This document shows, in pieces, positions 13,816 to 64,000 of a DNA stretch of 64,000 nucleotides. The position numbers and the translations under genes are program-made. How positions within the stretch are numbered: position 1 is the stretch's first letter; each line of letters starts with the position of its first letter. The DNA is from Gonatopus flavifemur (taxonomy: Eukaryota > Arthropoda > Insecta > Hymenoptera > Dryinidae): NCBI GenBank assembly GCA_018340375.1, contig JAFFJZ010000042.1, forward strand, positions 1,054,001-1,118,000. The letters are read 5' to 3'. Under the pieces are notes generated by a model. That model did no database searches. It was not told the DNA's origin and saw only the letters and a program-made list of their open reading frames with translations.

Positions 13816-14675
13816 AACATAATTAAATTCTAATATATTTTATAACTATTAGAACCAATAATCATTTCCTATGATATTTTTCGAAGCATGGCATACAAAA
13901 ATATGCATCACAATCTATGCAACTTCTCGTTGTTCTTTGTGAACAACCTTCAAACGAACATTTCCATCTCGATTTAGTTTCATTTTTATGAGCAGAAAGA
14001 TTTTCTTCCCCTTTTTTGCTTCGATAATACTCACTTGCGGCTATACACACGTCTTTATTAGAGACTTCTTGACCTTTTTGAAAGCAAAGATTTTACAAAA
14101 GAGTGACATTAGTTATTGAAGACTGTAAAATTCTCAAGAGAATTACCCAAGGCTACTTTTTGCCTCTTACACTTGGGATAACCCTATTGCACCTGTAATC
14201 GTGTAAATCAACGCCTCCCATGAAACTGTTATATAATGCAATAGCATGTGGGATCCACGATCTACCTTGTTTTGTTCTTCTATAGAATATCTCCGCATTT
14301 CAGTGAATGGAGTTACACCAGTAACGGAGGATAAAATTGATACGGGCTTTGAATCGATCACACTTACGTGATTTATGCCACTGCTTTCATCATGACTAAC
14401 TTTGTACTCACTTCGCTGTGCTTTATTATGGAGCTCGTGCTTGTTTTTCACTTGATCTTCTCTAACAACACTAGTAGACCGTGATCCATTTTTCAACAAA
14501 TGAATAACTAAATCTGGGCTCGCAAAATAGTTGTCAAAGCATAAATGATACATGGATATTTCTGTTTTTGGAACTGTCAATAGAAGATTATGCATCATAT
14601 TCAAGACAACTCGGGAGCCTGATGACTAGAGGAGTGTTATATTGCTATTATCACTACTATTTTTACCACAATATA

Positions 14676-40614: not shown

Positions 40615-41890
40615 CCAGGTGTGTAAGTATGAAACCGGAATTTGCCCATAGGTGGCGCTAGATGTCGATAGAGTTACCGACACATCACGTCAGCGGTGTC
40701 TTGTTATTGTATTGATATCCGACAAAGATTTCCAACTCACAATAACACGAGTTTCATTCCGTAGCATTAGTTTATTAGAGATAAACATGTCGAGTTTTGT
40801 GCCAACAAATTACGATTTGCGGACAGTACTATTTTTCTGTTTTCATCTGAAGAAAACCACAGCCGAATCGTATCGAATGCTTGTGGAGGCGTTTGGTGAG
40901 CATGCTCTCGGTAAAACACAGTGTTTCAAGTGGTTCAAACGGTTCAAGAGTGGCGATTTTGACGTCAGGAATGAAGAACGTGGAAGACCACCGAAAGAGT
41001 TTGAAGACGCTGACCTGCAAGCCATGTTGGACGAAGACGACGCTCAAACACAACAACAGCTGGCGGATCAGTTGAAGGTGACCCGAGAAGCCATCCCCCT
41101 TCCGTTGAAAGCCATGGGAAAGATACAAAAGGTGAGGAAATGGGTTCCACATGAACTCAACGGAACACAGCAGGGAAACCGCAAAATATCATGCGAAATG
41201 CTGCTCGCCAGGTTCCAAAGAAAGTCATTTCTCCATCGAATTGTGACTGGCGATGGAAAGTGGATATATTTCGAGAATCCTAAGCGTAAAAAGTCATGGG
41301 TTACTCCGGGTGAACCATCAACATCGACGGCAAGACCAAACCGCTACGGACGAAAGACAATGCCGTGTGTTTGGTGGGATCAGAAGGGCGTAATCTACTA
41401 CGAGCTGCTGAAACCTGGGGAAACTGTCAATACTCAACGCTACCGACAACAAATGATCGATTTGGATCGAGTTTTGCGTGAAAAACGACCAAAATACCAA
41501 CAAAGACAACACAAGGTGATTTTGCTGCATGACAATGCACCAGCACACAAAGCAAAACAGGTCCAGGAAACGATAGAGTCGTTCCGTTGGGAGATTCTTC
41601 AGCACGCGCCTTACTTACCGGACCTTGCCCCATCCGATTACTACTTGTTTGCATCGATGGGACACGCACTTGCTGAGCAGCGCTTTACTTCTTACGAAGA
41701 TGTACGAAAATGGCTCGATGATTGGTTTACCTCAAAAGAGCAACAGTTCTTTTGGCGCGGAATCCACAAATTGCCAGAAAGATGGAAAAAATGAATAGAT
41801 AGCGACGGACAATACTTTAAATATGTTTTAATATTACAATAAACGTGTTTTTTCTGTACAAAAATTCCGGTTTCATACTTACACACCTGG
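40615..41890 (+). mobile_element. mariner element 2, nearly intact
   Basis: A 1276-base element bounded by CCAGGTGTGTAAGTATGAAA and its complement, flanked by TA (40613-40614, 41891-41892). The terminal repeats are identical over about 28 bases, indicating recent insertion. It carries one open transposase frame. Confidence 0.9.
40787..41794 (+). CDS. mariner transposase, C-terminus clipped
   Basis: A 335-codon frame for a mariner D,D34D transposase, the enzyme that cuts and pastes its own element at TA. N-terminal HTH region includes FGEHALGKTQCFKWFKRFKSGDF and the linker GRPPKEFED. First Asp in VTGDGKW, second in LLHDNAPAH, third in PDLAPSDYY, with exactly 34 residues between the last two. 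ATG 40787 was chosen because it follows AATAAAC and gives the family N-terminus; an upstream in-frame start at 40652 would add residues overlapping the terminal repeat. A TGA after PERWKK removes the last ~10 residues, which still read SDGQYFK downstream. Probably inactive or weakened, but otherwise undamaged. Confidence 0.88.
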   Translation: MSSFVPTNYDLRTVLFFCFHLKKTTAESYRMLVEAFGEHALGKTQCFKWFKRFKSGDFDVRNEERGRPPKEFEDADLQAMLDEDDAQTQQQLADQLKVTREAIPLPLKAMGKIQKVRKWVPHELNGTQQGNRKISCEMLLARFQRKSFLHRIVTGDGKWIYFENPKRKKSWVTPGEPSTSTARPNRYGRKTMPCVWWDQKGVIYYELLKPGETVNTQRYRQQMIDLDRVLREKRPKYQQRQHKVILLHDNAPAHKAKQVQETIESFRWEILQHAPYLPDLAPSDYYLFASMGHALAEQRFTSYEDVRKWLDDWFTSKEQQFFWRGIHKLPERWKK

Positions 41891-44699: not shown

Positions 44700-47600
44700 G
44701 CAACAACAACATCATGATGACGTTCTCTCGAGTAAAATATTCCAGAGGTGAAATAGCCTCCCGTTCGGATCACCGGGTGGAGGCTGCTCGAGAGAGCTTC
44801 ATCAAACAAGATAGGAAATCGAAGAAGATAGGGAAGAAAGGGAACATTCTCCGAGTCGGAGCGTGGAATGTGAGAACACAGAGACGAATAGGAAATTTAG
44901 AAAATTTGAAATGAGAAATGAATAGGTTAGGTATCGATGTAATGAGAATTCGCGAAATGTAATGACCGCAAGGAGGGGATTTCTGGAGTGGGGATTATAG
45001 AATCATTCATACAGGATCAAATAATGGTCAAGCAGGTGTGGGGATTATAATGCATGAAAGGGTAGGGAATAGGATGGAAAATTATTTGCAACATAGCGAA
45101 CGCGTGATGATGGTTAGGGTTAGAACGAAACCGGTAGATACTGTTATAGTTCAAGTATACATGCCCAAATCTGCGTACTCAGAGTAAGATATTGAAGAAA
45201 CGTACGATGAAATAGTAGAAGTGATAGAATATGTGAAGAGAAGGAAATTGAATGATCATAGGTGACTGGAATGCGATAGTAGGGCAAGGGAAAGGGCGCA
45301 GTATGATAGGAGACTTTAGGTTAGGAGAAAGGAATGAGAGGGGACAACGTTTAATCGAATTCTGTGGAAGTCATGAAATGGTTATTACCAACATATTATT
45401 CAAAAATCGTCCAAGAAGAATCTATATTTGGAAAATGCCAGGAGATACAGCAAGATACCAAATTGATTACATATGAGTAGAACAAAGGTTTAGAAACCAA
45501 GTGAGAAGCTGTAGAACTTATCCAGGCGCGGACATACATAGTGATCACGATATGTTGCTGATGAAATGTTCTCTGAAATTCGAAGCTCTGGAGAAGAGAA
45601 GGAAAATGCAAAAAAAGATGGAATTTGAAGAATATCGAACAAGAACAAACACAGGAGGCATTCAAAGCAGTGATGCCAGATTCGAGACCGAGACTCTTCT
45701 TCTTACCCTCTCCATTGACCGCTTCCCCTTTCTCCCACCATACGGATTCAGTCGGGTGAGCGAAAGAGAAGGAGTAACTATCACTCTCTCACTCGTCCGA
45801 CTTGAACCGCATGGTTGCAGAAAGGGGAAGCGGTCGATGGGGGGGGAGTAAGAACGGTCTCGGTCTCAAATCTGGCATCACTGATTCAAAGTGATGTTGA
45901 ACGGGAAGTTGGAGAATCGACAAGATAAAGACTTGGAAATAGAGAGTAGATGGACAAATATAAAGGGGAACATAGAACAATGTGCAGATGAAATTTTGGA
46001 GAACGATGGAGGAGAGCCTAAGAAACCATGGATAACGGGAGAAATTCTCGATCTAATTAATGAAAGGAGGGAATACAAGAACAAGAGTAGCGAACAAGAC
46101 CAGCAGACATACAAGGCACTGAGGAATGGGATAATAAGAGAACCAAGGAAAGCGAAAGAACAATGGTTAGAGGTAAAATGTCAGGATATAGAAGTGAGAT
46201 TACATTTAGGGAGAATAGATGAGGCATATAGGATTCTCAAGAGATTTTTTGGACGAATAAAATCCAGAAGCAATAAGATTAAAAATTGTCCAGGGAGACA
46301 ATTGATAAGAACGGAGGGAAAAATAGAACAACGAATTGATCATTCAGAAGATCTGTATGAAGGGAGCGATAGTATAGGATTTTTAGAGAACACTGTTCGA
46401 ATTGGTCAGAGATATGTACGAAATAGGCGAAGTACCAAAAGATTTCCAGGAGAATAAAATTGTCGCGATTCCAAAAAAACAAGGAGCAGACAAATGCGGG
46501 AACTGCAGAACGATTAGTTCAACTTCACATGCCTCGGAAATACTGACGAAAATTATATACAGGAGAATAAAGAATGATTAGCAGAAGTAGATTAGTAGAA
46601 TTGAAAGTAGATTAGCAGAAGATCAGTTCGGTTTTAGGAAAAATAGGGGAACACGGGAAGCAATATCAGCACTCAGAACAGTCGTAAAGGAAAGTCTAGA
46701 GTTGAAAAAGTCTGTGTATATAGGTTTGGTAGATATACAAAAAGCATTCGATAATGTTGATTGGGAGAAAATGTTCATGATTATGAAAAAGGTAGGAATT
46801 AATTTCAAGGATAGGAGAATAATATATGAATTGTATAAGAATCAAACCGCAATAATAGAAATAGAGAGTCAAAAAGGAGAAGCACAAATTAAAGGAGGGG
46901 TGAGACAAGGATGCTTACTATCGCCATTGATTTTCAATTTGTATATAGAAGAAGCGATGAACGAAGTGAAGGAGCGAGTGCAATTGAAATTACAGATTCA
47001 AGGTGAAAATGTAAGCATGCTGAGATTTGCGGATGACATAGCTACATCAGCTACAAGTGCTGCTGAGTTGGAAAATACTCTCAACACGATGAAAACAATA
47101 TTACTAGAAAACTATTGTATGAATATAAATAAGGACAAAACAAAATTCATGATTTGTGCAACAGCGAAAACTTCAAGAAGAACGAAAATCAAAATAAATG
47201 CAGAGACAATTCAGCAAGTGGAAGAATTTAAATATCCAGGAAGCATAATGACAGAAAACGGTAAAAGCGAAAGGGATATAAGAGCAAGAATAGCACAGGG
47301 GAACAGGCTTTCCACCGGAAGAAACAGTCACTATGTTCGAAGAATATTAATTCAGCAGTGCGGGAGATATTCTTGAAGAGTTACGTTTGGAGCACAGCAT
47401 TATATGGTTGCGAAACTTGGACAATTGGAAAAACGGACCTACGAAGGCTCGAAGCTTTTGAAATGTGGTGTTATAGAAGGATGTTCGGAGTAAAGTGGAT
47501 AGAAAAAGTAAAGAATGAAGAAGTACTTGAGAAGGTGAATGAAAAAAGAAGTCTTTTGAGACAGGTCGTGAAAAGAAGAAGTAATCTGATAGTGCACACA

Positions 47601-47815
47601 TTGAGGCATGATAGCTTATTGAAAACAATATTGGAAGGAAAAATGAATGGTAAAACTCGAAGAGGTAGACCTAGATTGAGTTATATGAAGCCAATGAAAC
47701 AAGATAAGGGTTGTCGTAGATATGCAGAAATTAAGCGGTTAGCGGATAATAGACAGGGTTGGAGGATTTCATCAAACTAGTCATAAGACTGATTACGTCA
47801 TGATGATGATATTAA
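44700..47815 (+). pseudogene. RTE-clade LINE, decayed
   Basis: A nearly full-length but broken RTE-type non-LTR retrotransposon. The apurinic endonuclease domain is visible as RVGAWNVRT (44850), GVGIIMHERVGN (45030), GDWNAIVGQG (45262) and SDHDMLL (45540). The reverse transcriptase follows: DIQKAFDNVDWEKMF (46735), GGVRQGCLLSPLIFNLYIEE (46897) and the catalytic FADDIA (47030). The C-terminal part has LYGCETWTIGK and RRMFGVKWIEKVKNEEV (47400-47520). Stops or shifts occur near 44913, 44960, 45187, 45476, 46457, 46580 and 47375. The 3' end carries the short ATGATGATGA-like tail typical of the clade near 47800. A hAT-type MITE splits it. Confidence 0.85.
45668..45883. mobile_element. hAT MITE with perfect 8-bp duplication
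   Basis: A 216-base element with ends CAGTGATGCCAGATT and AATCTGGCATCACTG, flanked by ATTCAAAG on both sides (45660-45667 and 45884-45891). The arms extend through GAGACCGAGAC and its complement. Removing it with one duplication restores the LINE reading frame. CAGTG ends plus 8 bases identify hAT. Confidence 0.92.
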
Positions 47816-47911
47816 TTTTTGGTCTCTCAAATCATACGTATCCAATGCTCTGGTACTATTGATGTATTTGATACATGCGATTGTGGATGTAGTAATTATG
47901 AATATATGTTA

Positions 47912-48024
47912 CAGTAGGCTCTCGTTATAAGCGTCGCTAAAAGCTATCTGCGTCTTTTTCTCACATAAGATTCCGTACTGAGTGGAATAAGGACACAGCT
48001 CACGCTGATAACGAGAGGCTACTG
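47912..48024. mobile_element. pogo/Tigger-like MITE
   Basis: Ends CAGTAGGCTCTCGTTATAA and the complement of CAGTAGCCTCTCGTTATCA, 113 bases apart. The left flank is TA; the right flank (CA) is a one-base change. The CAGTA..CTCG-TATAA terminus is that of pogo-group elements. Confidence 0.65.
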
Positions 48025-48228: not shown

Positions 48229-49560
48229 TTGTGGTTCTCGTCAAGCGTGCTGAATATTGAAGTTACATCTTGTGTCAACAAGATGTGGGAATTGCGGCCA
48301 AGTGTAGAGAATCCACTGGTATCAAAAAACCCATCTTCAGTTTCGCAACATAATTCTTGTGAATTTATTGAGCACGATGATTACGTGGATGTAGTATCAT
48401 TTCCAGATGATGATGATGATGATTCTGATTTTAATTTTGAATCTGCTATCGTGTAAACAAGTTTTCCATCAGTACTTTGATTCTCAAGAGTGTTTGATGG
48501 AAAAACATGGGTATGAGTGGGTGATGGGCAAGAAAGAATGTGACAATATACCTAAAAACGAATGATTATTGAGGGATTGCGAAGCAAAAAAATTTAAAGA
48601 TAGTTCTTTTTCTCTTTGGAGATCAAGAATTATATTTTGCAAAGTACTTCTGAAAATGGGTTGGGTCTTTCAATTCCGGAGTTGAATTGTTTTATTGGTA
48701 TTTTGATGCTCACAATTTTCAATCAACGTGAGGCAATCAAAGGTTATTGGTCAACTGATCCCCTTCTTGAGTGTCCAATAGTGAAAAAATCAATGTCCAG
48801 AGACAGATTTACTTCAAAAGGAATACATTTGAAATGTTCGGAACGATCTGATGAAAATCAAGCTGATCGAGTTCGGCGTGTTTGTGCTATATTAGATATC
48901 TTTAGAGAAAATATTCAATGTTCCAAATTTTTCGAGACAGCTCTGTCGGTAGAAGAGATAATGATAAAATTTTATGGCAGATTAGCAATGAAACAATTTA
49001 TTAGGAACAAACCTATTCGATTTGGGATAAAGATGTGGGCAGTATGTGGAGCAGATGGATATCTATTTGATTGCAACGTCTACTGTGGTGAAAATTCAGG
49101 AGCAGATGGGAAACTATCCGAAACTACTCTTGGGAGTACAGTTGTTATAAATATTCCACAAACTTCATCACTGACAACGCCTAAAAGGAAATTGAACAAT
49201 TATCATCTTCATTGCGATAACTACTCCACTAACCCAGATCTTTTTGTTCACTTGCAAAAGCAAGGCTTGAAAGCTACTGGAATCGTCAGAGAAGACAGAG
49301 TAAAAGAGAAAAATAACCTCAGCAAAAAAACCATCCAGAGGAACTCATGCAGTGAAACGCGATAAGACCAGTGGCATCAATTTGATCACCTTTATGGACT
49401 CTGAAGAGGTGAGTATTCTATCATCTGCAGGAGGAGTTGAACCTCAAAAAAGTGCAAAACGATACTAAAGGACCTGCAGAGAAAACTGATATTGGGATGC
49501 TAGCTGCATTTTCATTATCCATATCTAAAAAGGACATGTCCGCAGCTTTCCAGAATGGTG
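48229..49560 (+). pseudogene. piggyBac transposase relic B
   Basis: A forward-strand piggyBac transposase distinct from relic A. An acidic N-terminal frame (48229-48456, ending in an Asp run) precedes a 249-codon frame (48616-49365) with LNCFIGILMLT, YWSTDPLLECPIVKKSMSRDRF, then SVEEIMIKFYGRLAMKQFI, where the usual first Asp of SVDE is Glu, RFGIKMWAVC, GYLFDCNVYCG and HCDNYSTNPDLFVHL with the second Asp. The third block, ITFMDSEEVSILSS, is in another frame near 49385. Stops near 48545 and 49365 and the substituted first Asp make it inactive. The C-terminal Cys-rich domain was not found. Confidence 0.8.
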
Positions 49561-52640: not shown

Positions 52641-53009
52641 GTGTGTAATTTTTCACGACAAACTCTCTGCAATATGTATGAAAATTCACCGTACCAAATG
52701 TTCGTTGATTGCACCGTTGACCTGTTGGCGTAACCTAATTCGTCTCTGGAAATGTGGTTCTAACGACAAAAGCACGTGACGTGGAATTGTTCGGCAGACA
52801 GTTCGTATTCTGAGTTCCATGTCATCTCATGGAATGGTATCTAGCGGCCAGTTTGCTGGCGGCCACTTTTGAAATTTTTGACACAGACTGTACCGCATAT
52901 TGAAAAACAGGAAAAGAGTGTTTCTGGCTGAAACAAGGTTGATAAGATTATTGTTGCATATTAGATTGATCGTTCGGGAACCCATGAAGAGGTTCATGTA
53001 GAGCAGGAC

Positions 53010-53650
53010 CCATAAAAATGTTTATTTAAAGAAAAAAGTGGAATAGGAACCATCAAATATAAAGGCCAATGTCTCATCATGGCAACATGCGTTTTTTTTC
53101 TAATCGATGCCAAACGACGAGGAGAACACCAGAAAAGATGCAGGAATCAATTCGGAGAGGGATCGCGGTTTATAACATTGTTTATTTAACAATTTATGGT
53201 GGGGAACGGGAGAATCTTGGATAAAACTGTTATATCTCCACTCGGCAACATTCGTTTTCCTTCTAATTGATTCAAAACGACGGAGAGAACACCGGAGAAG
53301 ATGAAGGAATGAATTCTGTGAGGGATCGCGGTTTATAACATTGTTTATTTAACAATTTACGGTGGGAAACAGCAGAATCTTGGATAAAACTGTTATATCT
53401 CCACTCGGCAACATACGTTTCCCTTCTAATTGATTCCAAACGACGGAGAGAACACCGGAGGAGATGAAGGAATGAATTCTGTGAGGGATCGCGGTTTATA
53501 ACATTGTTTATTTCACAATTTACGGTGGGAAACAGCAGAATCTTGGATAAAACTGTTATATCTCCACTCGGCAACATTCGTTTTCCTTCTAATTGATTCA
53601 AAACGACGGAGAGAATACCGGAGAAGATGAAGGAATGCATTCTCTGAGGA
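53010..53650. repeat. 163-base tandem array, four units
   Basis: The motif GATCGCGGTTTATAACATTG starts at 53161, 53324 and 53487, exactly 163 bases apart; a more diverged unit precedes at about 53010-53160. Units 2 and 3 are nearly identical. The open frames on the minus strand repeat with the array and are not genes. Confidence 0.88.
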
Positions 53651-53775
53651 GTAGTTATATAAGGCCGGTTCTGGACCGATTAGTATTAGTGCATGTCCGT
53701 GTGAGGGTGAGCTAGTATGCGTGTGTGTCTGTGTGACCAAAAGAATGACGTCATACTACATGTCAACATGGTGTA

Positions 53776-54200
53776 GGGTTACATGTAGTCCTGGGAATTG
53801 TTTACAGAAAGGGCTCATATTACACAGAATTCTGAGAATTTCTCGAAAAATGAAAGTAGGGTTACATGGAGTTCTGGGAATTGTTTACAGAAAGGGCTCA
53901 TATTACACAGAACTCTGAGAATTTCTCGGAAAATGATATCACGGTACATGAGATTCTAAGAATTATTCACGAAATGTGATCACTGGATCCTTCCAGTGGT
54001 GTCATATTACAAGATTCTGGGGAATGATACCATATTACGCAGGTTTATGAGAACTCGTACCATGTCATATCACACAGAATTCTGAGAATGATAACAATGA
54101 TATCATGGTACATGAGATTTTAAGAATTGTTTACAACACGAGATCATATTACATAGAACTCTTCAAATGGTGTCATGTTGCATGATTCTAAGAAATTCAG
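53776..54200. repeat. ~83-base degenerate tandem array
   Basis: GGGTTACATG.AGT.CTGGG recurs at 53776 and 53859 with near-identical units ending CAGAATTCTGAGAATTTCTCG; further diverged units with CATATTACACAGAA and GAGATT.TAAGAATT follow to about 54200. It lies just left of the Polinton-like gene cluster. Confidence 0.7.
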
Positions 54201-54420
54201 AAATCATATATCATATTATGCGTTTTATGCAGGTCCTTCCCCCTCCCCAATATTTTATCTCATATCATCCCTATTACGTTGTACATCATTCTTAGAAGTC
54301 GACACTGTTCCTTTTGATATACATATTATGAATCACTTCATTCCTCTGATGAATGCCGTTATCATTTTATTTTGAGTATAGTTTCGCTCCCACTTTCATC
54401 CCTTTCATTCAATGGAATCG

Positions 54421-54427
54421 TATATAA
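54421..54427 (+). promoter_or_regulatory. TATA box of first Polinton gene
   Basis: TATATAA, 44 bases before the ATG at 54465. Confidence 0.5.
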
Positions 54428-54464
54428 GTGCAGCTCATAATTTAGCGTCTTCAAAAACCGGAGA

Positions 54465-54632
54465 ATGTTGAGCAGATACACTCATCAAGAGTTGAAAATT
54501 CGCATGGAACTATTTTCCAAAGACATCGAAAAACTGAAACAATCAATAAGAGTGTATTGCGACGTTCGTGGAATATCAAAGCGTTCTGATTATTTGAACA
54601 TAAGTGAGGTGAAATCTTGTGATAAGTAATAC
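54465..54632 (+). CDS. small helical Polinton protein, unassigned
   Basis: A 55-codon frame starting MLSRYTHQELKIRMELF and ending at TAA 54632. It is predicted by eye to be helical and charged, without Cys pairs or membrane segments. It follows a TATA box and overlaps the next frame by 14 bases in the +1 frame, so it may be a separate small protein, or the N-terminal part of the next protein before a frameshift. I do not recognise the family. Confidence 0.4.
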
Positions 54633-54990
54633 AACTCTCATTGAAAAGTGTGAGAAGAAAACATTTGAATTGAACGAGATGGATTCCAGTAAAATCAACA
54701 AAGTTAGTTGTGTGGAAGACTATCTACCAATCAAGAAGTTGAAGAATTTAGAAATGAATAAGAGCCAACAGATTACAAACATAAGGAGGATAACTACAAA
54801 ATATGATGTGAAAATTATCATGGACGTTGGAAACAGTTTCACCATATTTCTTCCACAAAGAGTACAAAAACTTCTTGAAGGAGACAAAGATCTGTTCAAT
54901 CAGTTACAACAGTCGTGCATTGCTAAACAATTGTTCATGACTTTCTTGGGAGGAGTATGCAACAAACTTGAATTTACAAACAGTGTTTGA
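54619..54990 (+). CDS. Polinton-associated protein, OB-fold-like
   Basis: A frame of about 124 codons with no ATG at its upstream limit; the first ATG is at 54679 (MDSSKINK), giving about 103 residues. The core is a short beta-rich pattern: ITNIRRITTKYDVKIIMDV, then FTIFLPQRVQKLL, then a C-terminal LEF. Similar small proteins with an FLP.R motif accompany Polinton-like genes in arthropods. The pattern of a beta barrel with an LP-R loop is reminiscent of small ssDNA-binding OB folds, but that role is inference. If the frame change near 54620 is real damage, this and the preceding frame would be one gene. Confidence 0.5.
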   Translation: MISNTTLIEKCEKKTFELNEMDSSKINKVSCVEDYLPIKKLKNLEMNKSQQITNIRRITTKYDVKIIMDVGNSFTIFLPQRVQKLLEGDKDLFNQLQQSCIAKQLFMTFLGGVCNKLEFTNSV

Positions 54991-55535
54991 GGTGACATTT
55001 TTTCAAGTGACAATGTCTTATATACCCGGGAATCAACTGATTTGTGCAAAATCTTATAACTTGAATGCATCTTTCACAAAACAAGTTATTGTTGGCTTAA
55101 AATTGGAAAGTAATAAACGATGAATTCCCTCAGTGAATTGAATGAGCAGTCATCCACGTACATGCATATCTTTACCACCTGATGAATGGAAACTGTTTGA
55201 GAATCACTCCCAATTCATAAACTTATATTTGAATGGACATTATCCACAAATGAGAAGAGGAAAAATGATTGATTTCGCAACTTTCCGATTACGATTTTTA
55301 GTTCCCAATGATGATTATTTGGTAACACTAGAACTACAAGAAGGAACAATTGCAGGCCATTATCCATTTTATATAAGGAATACAACATTCAGCATTCTCA
55401 AAGAAGTTCTCCAGTGTGTAGATCAACATCTGCAACATTTACTGCACACACCTCTCCAAGTCATCAAAGATTCGATTGTTGGAATTATTGCCCAAGTGAT
55501 TACTAGTGGATTGAAATCAACGGACATCAAAAGTA

Positions 55536-56829
55536 CGAGGGTGGATTGATAAGTTTCCGGCCTGACCAAGAAAAAGAACGTTTTTAAGAATTTTTTTTTT
55601 CTTATTTCTCAACATAATCTCCTCCAAGGCTGATACATTTCTCATAGCGGTGTTCTAGTCTAGTAATGCCATCTCTATAGACTGATTCGTCAAGCTCCTC
55701 AAAAAACCCATTTACAGCTTCGATTACTTCTTCATTGTCCGCAAATCTCTCACCGCCAAGCCATTTTTTGAGGTTAGGAAACAGATAATAGTCACTCGGG
55801 GCTAGGTCTGGAAAGTAGGGAGGGTGCGGCGTTAATTCAAACTTCAGATCGTTGATTTTAGCCATCGCAACGATTGACGTGTGCGCTGGTGCGTTATCGT
55901 GATGAAACAAGATTTTTTTCTTCGCCAGATGAGGTCGTTTAATTCTCACTTCGTGGCTCAAACGTTGCAATAAGTCTGCGTAGTATTGACCAGTGATAGT
56001 TTTACCCTTTTCAAGGTAATCAATGTATATAATACCTCTTGCATCCCAAAAAACAGTAGCCATAACCTTGTTCGCCGAAAAAATTGTTTTTGCCTTCTTT
56101 GGAGTTGGTTCCCCTGGTCCAATCCACTGTTTAGACTGTTCTTTGGTTTCAGGAGTGTAGTGGTGGACCCAAGTTTCGTCAACGGTTACGAATCGACGCA
56201 AAAATTCGCTTGGATTACGCTTATACAACGCCAAATTGGCGGTAGAAATGTTCTTTCGAATCAATTTTTGGTCGACTGTTAGCAAACGCGGCACCCATCT
56301 TGCACAGAGCTTTTCCATATACAAATGTTGGTGCAAAATATTTTGTACACGTTCATATGACATCTTACAGGTCTCAGCTATCTCACGAACTTTTAATCTG
56401 CGATCTTTCAGCACTATTTGATGGATTGTTTCGATCATATCTGGAGTTGTGACCTCAATGGGGCGTCCTGAGCGAGGCTCTTCAGAGGTGCTCACACGAC
56501 CCTTTTTAAACTCGGAAACCCACTGCTTAACGGTTGAATATGATGGGGAGGATGTCCCCAGTGTTGAGTCCATCTCTTCTTTAATTTCCTTCGGCGTTAA
56601 CCCCTTCAAATAAAAGTATTTGATGACAGCACGATTTTCCAGCTTTTCCATTTTTACGAAAAACACAGAGGCGTCTTGGTCAGCGTGCTCTCAAAACTAA
56701 ACTAACATGGCGATCGGACTGAAACTATAGCTACAAGCTATCTAAGGATGGTACTATAGAACGCCACCTCAAGTTAGGCCTAGTGGCGCCATCTCTTGGT
56801 CAGGCCGGAAACTTATCAATCCACCCTCG
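55536..56829 (-). mobile_element. mariner element 3, intact, inside Polinton
   Basis: A 1294-base element with termini CGAGGGTGGATTGATAAGTT and the exact complement, flanked by TA (55534-55535, 56830-56831). The inverted repeats agree over about 35 bases, indicating a young insertion. Confidence 0.93.
55602..56651 (-). CDS. mariner transposase, intact (SETMAR-like lineage)
   Basis: A 349-codon uninterrupted transposase. The start MEKLENRAVIKYF is the family N-terminus; an in-frame ATG at 56666 would add five residues. Two N-terminal helix-turn-helix units include KEIKEEMDSTLG and REIAETCKMSYERVQNIL, separated by GRP linker residues. Catalytic residues: Asp in VTVDETW, Asp in FHHDNAPAH, Asp in PDLAPSDYY, with 34 residues between the last two. 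The C-terminus with EHRYEKCISLGGDYVEK is complete. It differs markedly from the transposases at 14749 and 40787, so three mariner lineages are present. It may be active. Confidence 0.93.
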   Translation of the reverse strand: MEKLENRAVIKYFYLKGLTPKEIKEEMDSTLGTSSPSYSTVKQWVSEFKKGRVSTSEEPRSGRPIEVTTPDMIETIHQIVLKDRRLKVREIAETCKMSYERVQNILHQHLYMEKLCARWVPRLLTVDQKLIRKNISTANLALYKRNPSEFLRRFVTVDETWVHHYTPETKEQSKQWIGPGEPTPKKAKTIFSANKVMATVFWDARGIIYIDYLEKGKTITGQYYADLLQRLSHEVRIKRPHLAKKKILFHHDNAPAHTSIVAMAKINDLKFELTPHPPYFPDLAPSDYYLFPNLKKWLGGERFADNEEVIEAVNGFFEELDESVYRDGITRLEHRYEKCISLGGDYVEK

Positions 56830-57242
56830 TATTATTGCATATGTGAAACTGCATCATGAAAGTTTACGAAAAAGTGTTTTAAGAAGACGTGATCACATAA
56901 ATTCCAATTTCACACATGTTGATGAACTCTTTTCAGAATTGGTTACATTTAAATTAAGAGTAATAGCATTAGAGATCGTCTGTTATGTATAACTTTGAAA
57001 TAATGACATTGGAAACTGTTTTATACATTAACTCAACAATATGAATATGTGGAAAGTTAGTTTTATTTTTTCAGAGAAAAAAAACTTCTTAAGTATATAA
57101 TTATGTATGTTCCTAAACGATGTAATTTTGATGGAAGGATATAAATTTTCAACATCTATCTGTTTCTTTCCTTATATTCCTTCGCACGATATGATTCCAA
57201 TGATAATAATAATAATGAAATATATGGGATATTCAACATGAA

Positions 57243-57248
57243 TTTTAT
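57243..57248 (-). terminator. polyadenylation signal after integrase
   Basis: AATAAA on the minus strand, 35 bases past the integrase stop at 57283. Confidence 0.5.
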
Positions 57249-57282
57249 TGAAGAACACTCAGTCTGAGTACATATACAATTC

Positions 57283-58215
57283 TTATGAATCAGATTTACT
57301 CATCCAGCTATTATGAGATTCATCGAAGCCTAACCATTTTACGAAAATCTTATTTCCATTTTTCTTGAGTATTGTTTCAATAAGGTAGATATCTGCATTT
57401 TTCACTTTGAGTAACTCTTGTTCGTAAAAACATCCCCTGATAGGTTTATCTTGATAATCCTTGAGCATATATGTCAATGGGATAGTATTTTTTATTCCAC
57501 TTATTGTAAATATTTCTTTGGTCCAATTCGGTGTGTAACCCTTATCAAAAACATGTCCAAATTCACTTATTCGAACTTTATCCCCAACATTGAACTTGGA
57601 TTTTTTAACGTTTTGAATTTCAAATCTGTTATACACATTTATCAATAATTTTCTTTCATGTTCAGCTGTAAGATCTTTTGGTTTCATTCCTATGGTTCGA
57701 TGTTTATCATTATTGTAAGAAAATACCAAATCAGATAATATATGCAACCATTTATAATTGCCTTGCAGACTGAATTGTATCCACATCTTACTCTTCAAAG
57801 TCCGATTAAATCGTTCACAAATCGATGCTTTCAAATTGCTATAGGTTGAGTATAAATTAATACTATATTCTTTCATAAGATCTTCAAACTGGGCATTGTA
57901 AAACTCCTTGCCTCTATCCACTTGCAAATTCTCAGGTTTACGTCTTCCCACCAGAACAGACTCCATTGCAGCAGTAACATCTTTCCCTGTTTTCGACTTT
58001 ACTGGAATGGCCCAGGCGAATTTTGAAAACGTATCGATAATGGTCAATATATACCTGTAACCTTCATTTTCTCGTTCATAGGGTTGCATCTCTACAATAT
58101 CAGCTTGCCACGTCTCATCTATTTTTCGGATATCAACGTGTCTGCGAGGATATCTTCGGCGTGCCGTTTTATGGAGCTCTTCCACTAAATCCTGCTTTTT
58201 TTTGTTCATTTTCAA
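57283..58215 (-). CDS. Polinton integrase with chromodomain
   Basis: An intact 310-residue retroviral-type (RVE) integrase, which would insert the element DNA in the nucleus. After a basic N-terminus (EELHKTARRRYPRRHV) comes the catalytic core: first Asp in WQADIVEM (residue ~34), then YILTIIDTFSKFAWAIPVKSK, second Asp in LQVDRGKEFY and Glu in CERFNRT, which I count as 33 residues apart. A basic barrel-like segment with KFNVGDKVRISEF follows. The C-terminal ~40 residues (YLIETILKKNGNKIFVKWLGF .. W) match a chromodomain, as in known Polinton integrases. An N-terminal HHCC finger is absent from this frame. It overlaps the upstream fibre-like gene by 47 bases, suggesting a shared transcript. Confidence 0.9.
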   Translation of the reverse strand: MKMNKKKQDLVEELHKTARRRYPRRHVDIRKIDETWQADIVEMQPYERENEGYRYILTIIDTFSKFAWAIPVKSKTGKDVTAAMESVLVGRRKPENLQVDRGKEFYNAQFEDLMKEYSINLYSTYSNLKASICERFNRTLKSKMWIQFSLQGNYKWLHILSDLVFSYNNDKHRTIGMKPKDLTAEHERKLLINVYNRFEIQNVKKSKFNVGDKVRISEFGHVFDKGYTPNWTKEIFTISGIKNTIPLTYMLKDYQDKPIRGCFYEQELLKVKNADIYLIETILKKNGNKIFVKWLGFDESHNSWMSKSDS

Positions 58216-58600
58216 TAGCTGTCAGCCTGTTATCTAATTCAAATATGAGCATAGAGTCACGATAGACTAATTTTCGGTTTGCATTGGCATTAATTTGAAC
58301 ACTTTCCAAATTTTGTTCAACAGAAGATTTCAGAGCTCCAATGATCATGTGATTGTTGACTACTTCAGTTCTTAACGATTCTATAACTTCAGAGACAGCA
58401 TTCATTTCATGTAAAATTACACGTTGCATCAAATCCAAATTGATTGCATCACTACGATCTTCAGCTTCAGCAACATTACATAGCCTCTTCTTATCTATAT
58501 TATAATGACCTTCAGAGGTTAATTTGAATCCAAGTCCTGGAGGACCCCGATTCATTGATTCGGTTTGTTTGAAATGAAGTCCGAATACATCAAGACTCAT
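58169..58600 (-). CDS. fibre-like coiled-coil protein
   Basis: An intact 143-residue protein starting MSLDVFGLHFKQ. Residues 19-55 contain GPPGLGFKLTSEGHYNI, KRLCNV and DAINLDLM, a pattern shared with insect Polinton proteins and strikingly like the phage tail-fibre motif in which a glycine-rich turn leads to a L-NV-P--DAVN segment. The remainder is a long amphipathic helix with heptad-like spacing, apt for trimerisation. The C-terminus overlaps the integrase start. The likely role is a virion fibre or other trimeric structural protein; this is inference from motif and context. Confidence 0.55.
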   Translation of the reverse strand: MSLDVFGLHFKQTESMNRGPPGLGFKLTSEGHYNIDKKRLCNVAEAEDRSDAINLDLMQRVILHEMNAVSEVIESLRTEVVNNHMIIGALKSSVEQNLESVQINANANRKLVYRDSMLIFELDNRLTAIENEQKKAGFSGRAP

Positions 58601-58633
58601 CGTGAGAATGACTTGAATGTTATAGAGAATTGT

Positions 58634-59416
58634 TTAATAGATAGTTCCAGCCTCTTGCAATTCTTCGATAATCGATAAAATTATTTTTATGAATTTGGGA
58701 GAGGCAGAGCTATTTATATTTTCTATGAAATGTTTGAATTTGAAACTCTCATTTTGACGCACAGGTTCATCTTTGCTATAATGTTTTCGGTGTAGATTTG
58801 TGGTGTTCAAAATTTGTTCAAAATTTTTCAAATCATTCTCACTCACATAGGTCTGTTCAGGTGTTTTTTTGAACAGCAATTCGAGCAAACCTCTGCTTGA
58901 AGGTGAATGTAATTTACTTACATCAATATAGTTTTCAAGAAAAGTTATTGGTGAATCACCTATCATTAATCTATTTTCTGATAGTTTTCTCACACCATAC
59001 ACATTGTCCATATCTTTATCCTTATTTTCCAACAATAAAAGATGTTTGTTCACAATATCATCCTCTGGAAGACTAATGGTGGATTCAAAATCTTCTGAAT
59101 CATTCGCGGTGTTATATGAATTCTCACCCTCATCCGTATTATCGGAATCATATTCTTTCTTCCCTTCAGGGGCTTCTTCATACTCGTTTTTGATTTCTTT
59201 TTTCCCTATAAGTGGATCCATATTCTTTACTGCTTCAAAACCTGTAACCAATTTCTCGAGTGGCGAAACAATCGGTTCTAATTTTCTACTCAAATCAATT
59301 TCAGCTGTTTTCCAACCGAACTGTAAAATTTTATGTTTATTCCGAATTGATTCACTGGCTTTTGCGATTTCATGTGAAATATTCCGTTCTTTACGATAAC
59401 TCTCCTTTCTCGACAT
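58634..59416 (-). CDS. conserved acidic Polinton protein, function unknown
   Basis: An intact 260-residue protein. The N-terminal third is basic and helical (MSRKESYRKERNISHEIAK), the middle is strongly acidic and low complexity (Asp/Glu/Ser from about 78 to 120), and the C-terminal half carries conserved-looking blocks: MIGDSPITFLENYIDV, GLLELLFKKTPEQTYV, and a final IKIILSIIEELQEAGTIY. The last block resembles the ending of proteins that accompany Polinton-type genes in other arthropods, where it follows a PNELVDRL-like segment. It lies between the ATPase and the fibre-like gene, has its own TATA-like box, and could be a structural or DNA-packaging accessory protein. No enzymatic motif seen. 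Confidence 0.6.
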   Translation of the reverse strand: MSRKESYRKERNISHEIAKASESIRNKHKILQFGWKTAEIDLSRKLEPIVSPLEKLVTGFEAVKNMDPLIGKKEIKNEYEEAPEGKKEYDSDNTDEGENSYNTANDSEDFESTISLPEDDIVNKHLLLLENKDKDMDNVYGVRKLSENRLMIGDSPITFLENYIDVSKLHSPSSRGLLELLFKKTPEQTYVSENDLKNFEQILNTTNLHRKHYSKDEPVRQNESFKFKHFIENINSSASPKFIKIILSIIEELQEAGTIY

Positions 59417-59468
59417 GCTGATCCAACTGAAGTGAAAATCACACTACCTCCATCAGATCATCAAAACC

Positions 59469-59476
59469 TTTATATA
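59469..59476 (-). promoter_or_regulatory. TATA box between ATPase and acidic protein gene
   Basis: TATATAAA on the minus strand, about 55 bases before the ATG at 59416 and just after the ATPase stop at 59483. Confidence 0.5.
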
Positions 59477-59482
59477 CGATTT

Positions 59483-60186
59483 CTATTCATCTACATTGAT
59501 GAAACAATCAAATCCCTTCCTGTATCGACCATGATCCAATTCACTATATTTATCGATTACAATAAATCCATGTTTATTTTCCTTCCAACATGCTGCACAT
59601 AATTCTCTGGAACGTATATAAGGCATATCTGTATTCACATGATCATTATACGCGTGTTTGAGATTCATCTCATCTTGATTAAATAATATGATTAGATTAC
59701 AGTTATCTCTTATCAGATGTTTTGGAATACGTGCATATGTTCGACAGAGGTAGAAACAGTCCACGTCTTTATGTCTACCCATACTAAAAAAAGCTCTTAT
59801 ATTATCTTGTTTCTCACAGGCCACATCATCAAATATGAATATAGAATGAGAGAGTGCCTCGTTCGGTGCGATAACTTTTTGATACTCATTGTATCCAAAG
59901 TATTGAATCCCATTCACAGAATGCAGAACTTCTTCCAAAAATTTATATTTTGGTTGATTCAGCGACTTTGAGTAAACATACCCGTCCTCAAATCTCAATC
60001 CATTTGGTTCAGTAATCAGAGCGGGGAGGGCGTTGGTTTTTCCACACTTCGGTGGTCCACAGAACACTGCTCGAACACTCTCTGGTAGTAAATTACCATG
60101 TCGTTTTTTTCTCTCCCATCTTCATGTTGTACAAGCGTATCGAAGTCCATGACAGGTAATTTTAACACTTGTGTTCTAAACTTCAT
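59483..60186 (-). pseudogene. packaging ATPase (A32/FtsK-HerA type), one frameshift
   Basis: The main frame (60067-59483) has a Walker A motif GPPKCGKT, a Walker B IFIFDD, then SMGRHKDVDCFYLCRTYARIPKHLIRDN and LIILFNQDE, matching the genome-packaging ATPases of Polintons and adintoviruses, which drive DNA into the capsid. The N-terminus, from ATG 60186, is in another frame; the two meet around a T7 run at 60104-60110 on the plus strand. A one-base indel there would account for it, either real decay or a homopolymer error. Total length of about 234 codons is normal for the family. Confidence 0.85.
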
Positions 60187-60266
60187 ACCGTTGACTGACG
60201 TGATAAACTATAAATTGAGTCTTTAAAAAGATCAACCTTCAGTCATAGATTTTTAGTCATACAGTT
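60187..60266. promoter_or_regulatory. divergent promoter region
   Basis: The 80 bases between the ATPase start (minus) and the phospholipase gene start (plus). TTTAAAAA at 60222-60229 lies 45 bases before ATG 60267; a TATAAA-like CTATAAAT at 60208-60215 could serve the minus-strand gene. Confidence 0.45.
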
Positions 60267-61088
60267 ATGATCGTGTATGAGAAGAAGAAGAAAAAACTCA
60301 AAGTCAGTCGTCAGCGAACTGGGAAAGCGATAACACGTGGTGACGGTTCAATTAATAAAATCAATCATAGTCTCCCAATAGAACTGCATTTACCTGGCTA
60401 TCAATACTGCGGACCAGGTACAAAACTATCAAAACGCATTGCACGAGGTGATCTAGGGATCAATCCATTGGATGCAGCTTGTGAGGAACACGATATCGCC
60501 TATTCTGAAAATCGTGGAAACATTGGAGCTAGGAATACTGCAGACGGAGTTCTAGCTGAGAGAGCTTTTGATCGTGTATTCGCCAAAGACGCGCGCATAG
60601 GTGAAAAAGCTGCTGCCTTAGCAATAGCAAGCGCGATGAAAGTAGAAGCAAAACTAGACATGGGGATTCTGAGGAGAACACATAAAAAATTGGTTTCACC
60701 ATTGAACAAAATTGTCCGAGCAGCCAAAAAATCCATGATCCCTCATGAGGATGCGCACAAAGTAATTGAATCTGCTCTCAAAGGTGCGCGTGAGGCTGTT
60801 AGGAAGGTTGGAGGGAGGAGAAATATAAGGAAACCTCGAATTGTTGCTGTACCATCTAAAATTGGCGGCTTACTTCCTTTCCTCATACCCACCTTTGCAG
60901 GTCTCAGTGCCACAGGAGCATTAGCTAGTGGAGCTGCAGGTATAATTGAGGCTATCAATGATGCAAGCGCTGCCAAACGAGCGCTTGAAGAAAGTCAACG
61001 TCATAATAGAACAATTGAATCATACAAGGAAGGTTTGGGACTCCATTTGGAAGAAAAAAAAACTCCAAGGAAGCAATCAAAAAATTGA
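60267..61088 (+). CDS. phospholipase A2 / pX-like capsid protein
   Basis: An intact 273-residue protein. A Lys-rich N-terminus is followed at residues ~47-83 by a parvovirus-type phospholipase A2 domain: YCGPGTKLSKR is the calcium-loop motif and DAACEEHDIAY the catalytic His-Asp helix. Such domains breach endosomal membranes in small DNA viruses. The middle is basic and helical. Residues ~195-230 form a hydrophobic, Gly/Ala-rich segment (GGLLPFLIPTFAGLSATG .. GAAGIIEAI) like the pX/pVI-type minor capsid proteins of adenoviruses and Polintons, followed by an amphipathic RHNRTIESYKEGLGLHL tail. It ends four bases into the protease frame. Confidence 0.85.
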   Translation: MIVYEKKKKKLKVSRQRTGKAITRGDGSINKINHSLPIELHLPGYQYCGPGTKLSKRIARGDLGINPLDAACEEHDIAYSENRGNIGARNTADGVLAERAFDRVFAKDARIGEKAAALAIASAMKVEAKLDMGILRRTHKKLVSPLNKIVRAAKKSMIPHEDAHKVIESALKGAREAVRKVGGRRNIRKPRIVAVPSKIGGLLPFLIPTFAGLSATGALASGAAGIIEAINDASAAKRALEESQRHNRTIESYKEGLGLHLEEKKTPRKQSKN

Positions 61089-61515
61089 TTCTCAAGCTAC
61101 CACACAGAGCCTTAACTGATTTTGATTTGACAAAATACGCAAAACTCATGAAAATCTCGGATTTTCGTAGGGTTTTCATGCGGAATGATCTGCCAGCAGG
61201 CGGTCCATACAAATATGAATCAGCTATTATTAATTTACATGATAAGGATTTTGGAGGGACTCATTGGGTGGCTTATAGGAAAATTGATAATGAAGTCATT
61301 TACTTTGATAGCTTTGGAAACCTTCGACCACCTATAGATCTTGAGAAGTATCTCGGTGTTTATAATATAAAATATAATCATGAAATATATCAAACCCAGA
61401 CACATTCATATGTGGACATTTATGTCTTAAATTTTTATGTGGACAATTGAAATCAAAAAGTATGTACAACCTATATAAATGAGTACATTGATGATTCCAA
61501 ATCATTCAAGTGTGT
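61085..61515 (+). pseudogene. adenain-like capsid maturation protease, frameshifted
   Basis: A C5-type cysteine protease, which cleaves capsid precursors. The frame 61085-61450 shows the family N-terminus (RALTDFDLTKYAKLMKISDF, RRVFMRNDLPAGGP), the catalytic His in GGTHWVAYRK and the acidic partner in YFDSFGNLRPP. The catalytic Cys is missing from this frame: after HSY the expected Cys-Gly-His motif lies one frame over, near 61413, and continues there to a TGA near 61484. A single-base indel just before the active site therefore inactivates the copy, unless it is a sequencing error. No ATG exists before 61147, so translation may depend on the upstream gene; a run of nine A (61054-61062) lies just before the overlap. 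Confidence 0.8.
61472..61479 (+). promoter_or_regulatory. TATA box of minor capsid gene
   Basis: TATATAAA, 50 bases before ATG 61522, overlapping the end of the protease gene. Confidence 0.5.
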
Positions 61516-61521
61516 ATCGTC

Positions 61522-62214
61522 ATGAATGATACATCATTCACTTTAACATTATCGGGGAATTCTTCGATACTAGAGGCACAATATTTTCCACCTATTGAAT
61601 TTCTATCTGATAACAACTACACTCTGGGGCTTATAGAATTTTGAACCTTCAATTCAATTCCGAATATAGACAATGATGCGAATTCATTCTATGTTGGTGA
61701 AGAAGAAATTATCATACCCACAGGCAGCTATGAAATAGGTGATATTCAAAACTATCTACAGAGGGTTTTGACTCAAAAGGGTATCAATATTCATATTAAA
61801 CCAAATAATAATACATTGCGTAGCGAGATATACTGTAATCGTGAAATAAATTTCCAACCTAAGAACTCTATTGGTCGCGTATTAGGTTTCAAACCTTCTG
61901 TATTGAAAGCTAATGAAATCCATATATCTGATCAACCGGTTTCCATAATCAAAATCAACTCTCTGAGAATTGAGTGTAATATTACGATGGGAGCATACAC
62001 TAATAATCTTAAAGTGCATACTATTCACGAGTTTTTTCCTATGGTTCCACCAGGATATAAGATAGTAGAAATTCCATCACACGTCATTTATCTACCAGTC
62101 GTTGTTAAGACTATAGATTATATTCAGCTGCGAATAGTTGATCAAGACGGAGAATTGGTTAATTTTCGTGGAGAGGTTATAACAATAAGATTACATGTAA
62201 AATCATTTCAGTGA
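61522..62214 (+). pseudogene. penton-like minor capsid protein, one stop
   Basis: A 230-codon frame matching the Polinton minor capsid (penton-like, single jelly-roll) protein that forms capsid vertices. Recognisable blocks are LEAQYFPPIEF, YTLGLIEF, NSIPNID, PTGSYEIGDI, FQPKNSIGRVLGF and the C-terminal IDYIQLRIVDQDGELVNFRG with EVITIRLHV, the usual ending. A TGA at 61642-61644 interrupts codon 41; the rest is open to the stop at 62214. ATG 61522 follows a TATA box and gives the expected N-terminus. Structural assignment rests on family resemblance. Confidence 0.78.
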
Positions 62215-62219
62215 TAGAA

Positions 62220-62405
62220 ATGGGAATTGTTTATAATAGAAAGATTGGTGATGGTTATAACAGCAGTGTGACATGCAACGAGCAAATCAGTCACAAACCC
62301 GCCCTCAAAGTGCTAACACATCGGCACAAGCAACTTTTAAGAAACCTAGGTTACAAGCTGTCAACACACAATCGGAAAAGCAGGAGGAGAAACGTAAAAA
62401 ATTAA
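62220..62405 (+). CDS. small basic Polinton protein
   Basis: A 61-codon frame from ATG 62220, starting MGIVYNRKIGDGYNSSV and ending in a Lys/Arg-rich tail. The block HKQLLRNLGYKL resembles the short NKQFLKSLG-type segment of small proteins between minor and major capsid genes in insect Polintons. Possibly a core or cement protein. A competing overlapping frame (62273-62494) is also open, so confidence is moderate. Confidence 0.4.
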   Translation: MGIVYNRKIGDGYNSSVTCNEQISHKPALKVLTHRHKQLLRNLGYKLSTHNRKSRRRNVKN

Positions 62406-62468
62406 GAAGAATACAATTGTTCTGTTCTTGTATCTACATATTTGTGTTTCATAATATTGTCTTTTGTC

Positions 62469-63691
62469 ATGGAAGGGGAAATTTTGAATATTGAAACACC
62501 TATTATCTTTGATGAATCTTTTGCGCATTGTGAGGTGCATGCCCATCAACCATATGCCTCATCAACCTTCAACAATAGTGATGAAATTCGAATTGCTGTG
62601 CAAAATCAAGATATTTGTTCACTTCCTAGCAGAAGTTCACTTCATGTGAGAGGAAAATTGATACAATTAGATGGAAATCCAGTAGTGAGAACGTCTTTAG
62701 TCAGTAACTCGATTTGTCACTTGTTCGAAGAAGCGAGATATAAAATGAATGCAGTAGAAATTGATAGGATAAAAAATCTCGGTCTCACAAGTCTCATGAA
62801 AAATTATCTTCAAGTCCTGGACATGAAAAAATGATGGAAAATGCTGGATGGTTGAAATTTATTGCTGATGACGGGATAGCATTGAATAACGCAGCTGGTT
62901 ATTTTGATATTATTATACCATGAGGAATGATGTTTGGTTTTGCTGAAGATTATCGTAGAATCATTGTCAATGCCAAACATGAATTAATTTTGGTAAGATC
63001 AAAAAGTGATGCGAACGCTATTATACAAATAGCACCCAACGAGCCATACAAAATTATGATTGATAAGGTAGAATGGTTATTACCATACATTAAATTGTCA
63101 GATCGGAGGAAAATAAAACTTCTCAAATATATTGAGAACGATCCGTCTATTTCAATGAGTTTCCGCACATGGGAATTATACGAATATCCTTCTCTTCCTA
63201 TAACTTCAAATCATATTTGGATTGTGAAAACATCAACTCAGCTAGACAAACCTAGATACATTATATTTGGATTCCAAACGAACAGAAAAAATAATGTTAA
63301 TTCAAATGCAAGTCATTTTGATCACTGTAATATTCGGGATATCAAATTATTTTTGAATTCTCAATCTTATCCTTATGGTAATCTAAATTTCGATATTGAA
63401 CAAAATCAGTATGCTTTATTATATGAAATGTATGCAACTTTTCAAACAATTTATTATGGAAGAGCCCCACAACCGTTGTTTTCCAGAAATGAATTCTATC
63501 GTTATGCTCCTCCCATAGTTATTGATTGTTCAAAACGGAATGAATCCCTCAAATCTGGACCGGTTGACGTTCGACTTGAATTTGAAACTAGAGGTAATAT
63601 TGCTGCTCAAACTTCAGCTTATTGTTTGATCTTACATGATCGCATTGTTGAATATACTCCAATAAGTGGAGGGGTTAGGAAATTGATATAA
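62469..63691 (+). pseudogene. major capsid protein (hexon-like), frameshift and stop
   Basis: About 407 codons, the usual size of Polinton double-jelly-roll major capsid proteins, which build the icosahedral shell. Blocks in order: TPIIFDESFAHCEVHAHQPY, FNNSDEIRIAVQNQD and RSSLHVRGKL in the first frame; after a one-base frame change near 62810, ENAGWLKF; then a TGA at 62921-62923; then GFAEDYRRIIVNAKHELIL, ISMSFRTWELYEYPSLP, FLNSQSYPYGNLN and a C-terminal jelly roll with VDVRLEFET. Two breaks make this copy inactive as read. The start is ATG 62469, the first in frame. Confidence 0.85.
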
Positions 63692-63694
63692 TAA
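63687..63694 (+). promoter_or_regulatory. TATA-like box of last gene
   Basis: TATAATAA, 46 bases before ATG 63733 and overlapping the capsid gene stop codon. Confidence 0.4.
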
Positions 63695-63732
63695 GTATTG
63701 AAAATCAAATTAATAACTCAGTTGGATCTAGA

Positions 63733-64000
63733 ATGGAGCACGTGGTAGACATTCAAGGATTTCAATCATCAAAAAACGAATTTTTGATAAAAGAATTATC
63801 AATATTCCCCATTGATGAGCAAAATGAAAAACCGTGCGTTTTTCTCTTCTAATCTCCTTGTACGTGGAACAGTCTATCTATGAAATGTAAGAGAACGAAC
63901 ACATGGTTGAAACATAATTTTCATGGTATGACTTGGGAGGCTGGAGATATACCTTATGATTTAGTAAAAATCATATTGAATTCCATTTTGATAAGTGCTA
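63733..64000 (+). pseudogene. exonuclease-like Polinton protein, partial
   Basis: The frame starts MEHVVDIQGFQSSKNEF and runs off the right edge. The opening VVDIQGF with a following KELSI strand matches proteins linked to arthropod Polinton-like genes and recalls the first motif of DEDD-type 3'-5' exonucleases, where the Asp binds metal; the later FHGMTWEAGDIPYDLV block is also shared. A TAA at 63850-63852 (codon 40) interrupts it, after which the same frame stays open to the edge. The nuclease role is inference because the other acidic motifs lie outside the window. Confidence 0.45.

Follow-up and report, generated by a model that had tools for sequence, protein, structure and literature searches.

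A decayed Polinton/Maverick provirus of the adintovirus type, with two divergent gene blocks, in the genome of the hymenopteran Gonatopus flavifemur

The right end of a 64,000-nucleotide stretch of the Gonatopus flavifemur genome (Hymenoptera, Dryinidae; GenBank assembly GCA_018340375.1, contig JAFFJZ010000042.1, positions 1,054,001 to 1,118,000; this whole stretch is called the window below, and positions are counted from its first letter) carries a dense block of genes that belongs, almost certainly, to a single Polinton/Maverick provirus of adintovirus type, of which it forms the left part. A first-pass annotation of the window had read the block as a Polinton/adintovirus-like element, and this reading is supported by a PolB gene, by terminal inverted repeats with a 6-bp duplication and by a gene order shared across copies in the same genome. 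According to the part of the source available to us, the former Adintoviridae have been renamed Eupolintoviridae (PMC12451622).

The whole element reaches from position 53650 to window-equivalent position 70445 (C341:1124445), so that its right end lies 6.4 kb beyond the window edge, and it spans 16.8 kb, 1.3 kb of which belong to an inserted mariner transposon. It is bounded by terminal inverted repeats of 656 bp that begin 5'-AGTAGT and differ between left and right at 11 of 656 positions; the inverted-repeat match pairs window 53649-54305 with contig 1124446-1123790 at 98.3%. The start of the repeat, 5'-AGTAGTTATATAAGG at 53650, was fixed by comparison with three other copies of the element (C166, C207 and C219). 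Perfect 6-bp duplications flank all three copies for which both ends were found, namely CTGAGG around the window copy, GATATG in C207 and CATTTG in C166, and only the left end of the C219 copy was found within the 25 kb examined. The terminal repeats and duplication that the first-pass annotation had proposed looking for are therefore present, while its start of the element, 54400, was wrong. A pair of outer inverted repeats starting at 52829 was also considered as the Polinton ends and rejected, given that a 9-bp duplication is found there and that the three other Polinton copies share the repeat only from 53650 inward.

We scored the proteins of the window against Pfam with curated cut-offs. 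The six gene types named earlier (integrase, packaging ATPase, protease, minor and major capsid proteins and phospholipase A2 (PLA2)) were all recovered where they had been placed, five by Pfam and the minor capsid protein by its predicted fold (Table 1). The integrase carries the residues D41, D102 and E136, with 33 residues between the last two, and its chromodomain match is weak (Chromo E 0.0029, 17.9 bits versus a cut-off of 25.1). Two matches fell slightly below their cut-offs, these being Pox_A32 for the ATPase (21.4 bits, cut-off 22.8) and Peptidase_C5 for the protease (20 bits, cut-off 21.3). No in-frame ATG precedes the Walker A motif of the ATPase, so its start was probably lost, and the protease is broken in that its CGxxC cysteine motif at 61411, which we take to be the catalytic one, lies in a different frame. 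The PLA2 protein bears GPG and HDIAY motifs. In the major capsid protein (MCP), DJR-like_dom matched with E 1.5e-93 at 62924-63691(+) and E 2e-8 at 62406-62834(+). Homologues of the MCP numbered 1140 proteins, and the 120 listed among them share 59-74% identity over 91-100% of the query piece; those of the 120 that are named by organism, including Leptopilina, Athalia, Cephus, Orussus and Venturia, are presumably all Hymenoptera. The minor capsid protein had 763 homologues and no convincing Pfam match; a search of the PDB with its predicted fold returned, in the top six rows, one adenovirus-derived binder and five chains of viral capsids, mavirus penton accounting for two of the five; the rows from BFVD include minor capsid and penton proteins, and the modelled fold is penton-like.

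Next to the ATPase lies a DUF8207-type protein with 31 homologues, of which 31 carry PF26634; in the Pfam scan, PF26634 did not match the protein of the window copy. Its BFVD match is a bracovirus DUF8207 protein, its named homologues come from Leptopilina and Microctonus, and its predicted structure combines a long helix with a small C-terminal domain that has no clear relative. Because its alignment to the C207 copy falls in two parts, the frame may miss an inner stretch. PolB lies wholly past the window edge, in agreement with the annotation's statement that the first 9.6 kb hold no polymerase, and the rightward extension it had suggested brought the gene to light just outside the window: in the adjoining 10 kb of the contig (L009), PolB lies 1.8-5.6 kb past the right edge, with DNA_pol_B_2 at E 7.9e-14 in L009:4801-6132 (-) and more pieces on both sides. 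This piece, one of the two middle ones of four, also holds an Endonuclease_7 domain by Pfam, and no Pfam OTU match was found in L009:6117-7586, where the PolB pieces were scanned separately. The PolB frame has two in-frame stops and one frame change. That these stops are shared and functional was considered and rejected, as neither occurs in the other copies compared, which were three for one junction and two for the second.

Table 1. Features of the Polinton/Maverick element and of the elements nested with it (window positions; PolB is given in L009 and window-equivalent positions).
Feature	Position	Strand	Evidence
Fold-back element, left part, 163-bp tandem repeats, split by the Polinton	52829..53649	+	Outer right arm at window-equivalent 71178-71998
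6-bp target-site duplication CTGAGG	53644..53649	+	Second copy directly 3' of right end, outside window
Polinton/Maverick element, left 10.35 kb (10.4 kb) in window	53650..64000	.	Ends from inverted repeats common to other copies and 6-bp duplication
Left terminal inverted repeat, with internal ~83-bp repeats	53650..54305	+	Right repeat at window-equivalent 69790-70445
Small conserved ORF, no assigned function	54613..54990	+	93-94% identical in 2 of 3 other copies examined; no Pfam match above cut-off
Small conserved ORF, no assigned function; final codons enter mariner	55142..55549	+	90-92% identity across 131 of its 135 residues, in 2 of 3 other copies
Mariner transposon inserted in the Polinton	55536..56829	-	362-codon open frame (stop to stop) with D,D34D; the same 37-nt stretch at both ends; TA on either side
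DDE integrase, frame open, weak C-terminal chromodomain	57283..58221	-	Pfam rve E 2.5e-14
Conserved ORF, no assigned function	58169..58633	-	90-94% identical in three other copies; no Pfam match
DUF8207-type protein adjoining ATPase, frame open	58634..59443	-	Homologues and BFVD match
A32/FtsK-like genome-packaging ATPase, Walker A GPPKCGKT	59483..60121	-	Pfam Pox_A32 E 1.9e-4
Protein with parvovirus-type PLA2 domain, frame open, first ATG 60267	60249..61088	+	Phospholip_A2_4 E 1.5e-10
Adenain-like cysteine protease, broken	61019..61450	+	Peptidase_C5 E 5.8e-4
Minor capsid protein, penton-like by predicted fold, broken by in-frame stop	61522..62214	+	Homologues, tblastn, predicted fold
Double jelly-roll MCP, broken by frame change	62469..63691	+	Pfam DJR-like_dom (PF21738)
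Start of conserved 126-codon ORF (L009:1853-2233), crosses window edge	63853..64000	+	Comparison with other copies
PolB gene in four pieces	L009 3829-7586 (65829-69586)	-	DNA_pol_B_2

That these genes belong to one element, as annotated, follows from the single repeat pair and single 6-bp duplication that enclose them all, and from the gene-by-gene comparison with the three other copies, whose order and strands agree. None of the three is complete: C166 is without most of PolB, C207 has no protease and retains little of the PLA2 gene, and in the stretch of C219 examined neither of the two left-end ORFs (54613..54990 and 55142..55549) found a match. Unrelated nested elements do occur here, namely the mariner and a fold-back element, and one could picture a retroelement integrase, a virus fragment with capsid, protease and PLA2, and other transposons inserted separately and adjoining by chance; yet the shared terminal repeats and duplication refute such an assembly, the same gene order recurs in three other copies, losses aside, and we give it practically no credence.

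Copies were counted by searching the same 636-Mb genome with the window proteins. The capsid piece gave 62 matches in 38 loci, 19 of them, window copy included, at at least 85% identity, and the ATPase gave 39 matches in 29 loci, 15 of them at at least 85% identity. For the integrase there were at least 128 matches in its own genome (scoring covered 127 of 1242 first-look candidates), most at about 30-57% identity; we take the lower-identity ones as other Polinton families or decayed relatives. In the element, ATPase, DUF8207 protein, small ORF and integrase share one strand, PLA2 protein, protease, penton and MCP are encoded on the opposite one, and the two blocks stand less than 200 bp apart. 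Where an MCP locus and an ATPase locus lie no more than 16 kb apart (23 pairs), this divergent arrangement was present in 22, so the gene order is a stable trait in this genome and not a local rearrangement. The exceptional pair, in a distant Polinton relative (C392:19045126-19048973), has MCP and ATPase on one strand. The first-pass annotation had held that the order differs from that of a simple cassette, which is true in relation to the Spodoptera Mavericks, as far as the accessible text of their description goes (PMC5803895); here, however, it is the common order. A partial literature search, leaving aside the 2006 founding papers, met no description of this divergent layout in Hymenoptera, and we make no claim of novelty on that basis. 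It seems rather improbable that the layout marks a distinct hymenopteran Polinton branch in which one bidirectional promoter would drive both blocks and which would have undergone a recent burst from an infectious, particle-borne form.

By gene content, Sf Maverick 1 and 2 of Spodoptera frugiperda have nearly the same gene set as the window element, judging by the portion of the report at hand (PMC5803895). Shared are the A32-like ATPase, the rve integrase, which has a chromodomain in the Sf Mavericks and a weak match to one here, the adenain-like protease and a PolB with a recombination-endonuclease-VII stretch; the Sf Mavericks also have a PLA2-bearing 'CAP', an ORF7 of about 400 codons and smaller ORFs (ORF6-8), and their ORF2 is listed beside the ATPase, as is the DUF8207 protein of the window element. 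Their eight small ORFs stand in tandem on one strand, whereas the window element has two divergent blocks. The authors report, in the same portion, that no PY (double jelly-roll) capsid was found; from place and size, ORF6 would be the counterpart of the penton and ORF7 that of the major capsid protein. The published definition of Adintoviridae, in the extract we used (PMC11071296), gives the same adenovirus-like capsid set together with PolB and integrase, which the window element matches by description; the definition also has a PolB N-terminal OTU-like domain and a C-terminal integrase chromodomain; here the separately scanned PolB pieces gave no Pfam OTU match, and the Chromo match was weak. 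Vertebrate Mavericks likewise have 6-bp duplications, AG- or AGT-repeat ends and eight core genes, and differ from the window element in host and sequence, according to the sections consulted (PMC8097293). The gene content, PLA2 protein included, has thus been largely known since 2018 for Spodoptera Mavericks, on the evidence of the excerpt cited (PMC5803895). By itself the window element, though well formed, is an ordinary representative of an already known kind and leaves the general picture unchanged. Polintons are proposed ancestors of many eukaryotic DNA viruses.

We infer from what these families are known to do that the ancestors of the element made virions, as the first-pass annotation had suggested in calling it once virion-forming, and capsid constraint between families (below) backs this. 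From what is known of the family, the element would have been a linear double-stranded DNA whose ends were copied by its own protein-primed polymerase; the DDE integrase with its chromodomain would paste it into chromatin, giving rise to the 6-bp duplication. Again by family knowledge, ATPase, protease, penton and double jelly-roll capsid would package the DNA into a particle, and the PLA2 protein would open the membrane at entry. The window copy jumped into a fold-back element and was struck by a mariner afterwards. Viral particles of this group had not been seen, according to the abstract of PMC8097293.

For the comparison between families, the window MCP piece was set against less related copies (5 of 12 loci below 88% identity). 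The dN/dS was 0.10 (dS 2.8, near saturation), 0.16, 0.24 and 0.12 (dS 2.0), so that four of the five values fall at about 0.10-0.24; the fifth was 0.51, and the copy behind it has four stops. The values 0.16 and 0.24 are from pieces of one locus. On these ratios the capsid is constrained between families. Among close copies, the ratio of means was 0.53 for the MCP (ten best) and 0.59 for the integrase (eight best), and the MCP variants comprised 114 singletons, of which 73 are replacements, 37 silent and 4 stops, versus 12 shared (9 replacement, 3 silent). In the private variants a plain per-site test gave a replacement/silent ratio per site of 0.51, an excess of silent changes (P 0.0014). Once the mutation spectrum was controlled for, silent variants numbered 37 versus 29.6 (P 0.058), the excess was no longer clear, and an earlier reading of it and of the ratio of 0.53 as clear selection was withdrawn. 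The MCP among close copies thus seems close to neutral, with weak constraint. Cyprinid Mavericks, in the part of the study available, show strong constraint on all core genes, far above that of the close copies here (PMC8097293). The multi-copy case allows between-family capsid constraint to be compared against within-burst decay.

The left and right repeats differ by 1.68, 2.74 and 2.63% inside three copies, and repeats of different copies differ by 2.15-4.27%. The simplest reading of the 19 close capsid loci would be one insertion burst from near-identical sources, with decay since. If insects accumulate about 3e-9 mutations per site in each generation, the end-to-end difference of 1.7-2.7% corresponds, roughly, to an age of a few million generations. 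Alternatively, an exogenous adintovirus population, carried in particles and recently circulating in the host, could have integrated independently at each of the 19 loci, which would then not be germ-line copies. The complete virion gene set, the capsid constraint between families, the somewhat greater divergence between than within copies and the silent excess seen without spectrum control all lean that way. The two ranges of divergence overlap, however; the variants are almost all private and near neutral once the spectrum is controlled, which fits a single-source burst and decay; and a search of IMG/VR with the capsid piece found no relative. In addition, hymenopteran Maverick integrases have been described in a study of wasps that, in the part available to us, concluded mainly vertical transmission (PMC6035795). 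We consider a circulating virus unlikely. The selection data support a capsid function in the ancestry and tell little about the route by which the recent copies spread.

The window copy itself is dead, a fossil: protease, minor capsid protein, MCP and PolB are broken and the ATPase is without a start, while integrase, DUF8207 protein, PLA2 protein and small ORFs are open. This state bears on whether the host has domesticated the capsid locus and kept it, as happened with polydnavirus-like particles. Hymenoptera are the group known for domesticated viral genes, and a Maverick fragment inside a bracovirus was reported by Dupuy 2011, as cited in PMC5803895 and referenced in PMC3671162; but the window locus has three broken virion genes (protease, minor and major capsid), carries transposon ends and is one of many copies, all of which makes domestication very unlikely.

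The nesting shows in what relative order the parts arrived: an older frame, the fold-back element, the Polinton and a young mariner. The mariner sits at the end of a small Polinton ORF and is not part of the Polinton; close relatives (96-98% in the main pieces) also interrupt PolB in C166 and the capsid gene in C219. The fold-back arms, window 52829-53649 and contig 1125998-1125178, have an inverted identity of 94.3% over 824 columns, and the element extends right of the Polinton over window-equivalent 70446-71998. Since the contig just right of the Polinton carries on the 163-bp repeats of the left arm, the fold-back element was split by the Polinton. It is flanked by a 9-bp duplication, TGTCATCTC, and by this length is presumably MULE- or FB-like. 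When its flanks were joined in silico, one long frame read through, so the fold-back element had itself split an older coding frame; by eye this frame looks like a transposase, and neither side alone matched a Pfam family.

Elsewhere in the window, a 282-codon frame (1980-2828) has a weak ubiquitin C-terminal hydrolase match below cut-off (E 0.005). DDE_Tnp_1_7 transposase remnants, which we take to be of piggyBac type, lie at 14167-14625 and 48604-49365, and TNP-like RNase H remnants, presumably of P-element type, at 7535-8026 and 20885-21505. Two more mariner transposase frames were found at 40652-41794 (380 codons, open) and 15199-15807, and a reverse transcriptase piece (RVT_1) at 46591-47376 falls in a strand-asymmetric stretch (46001-48000) with a GC skew of 0.33 and an AT skew of 0.26.
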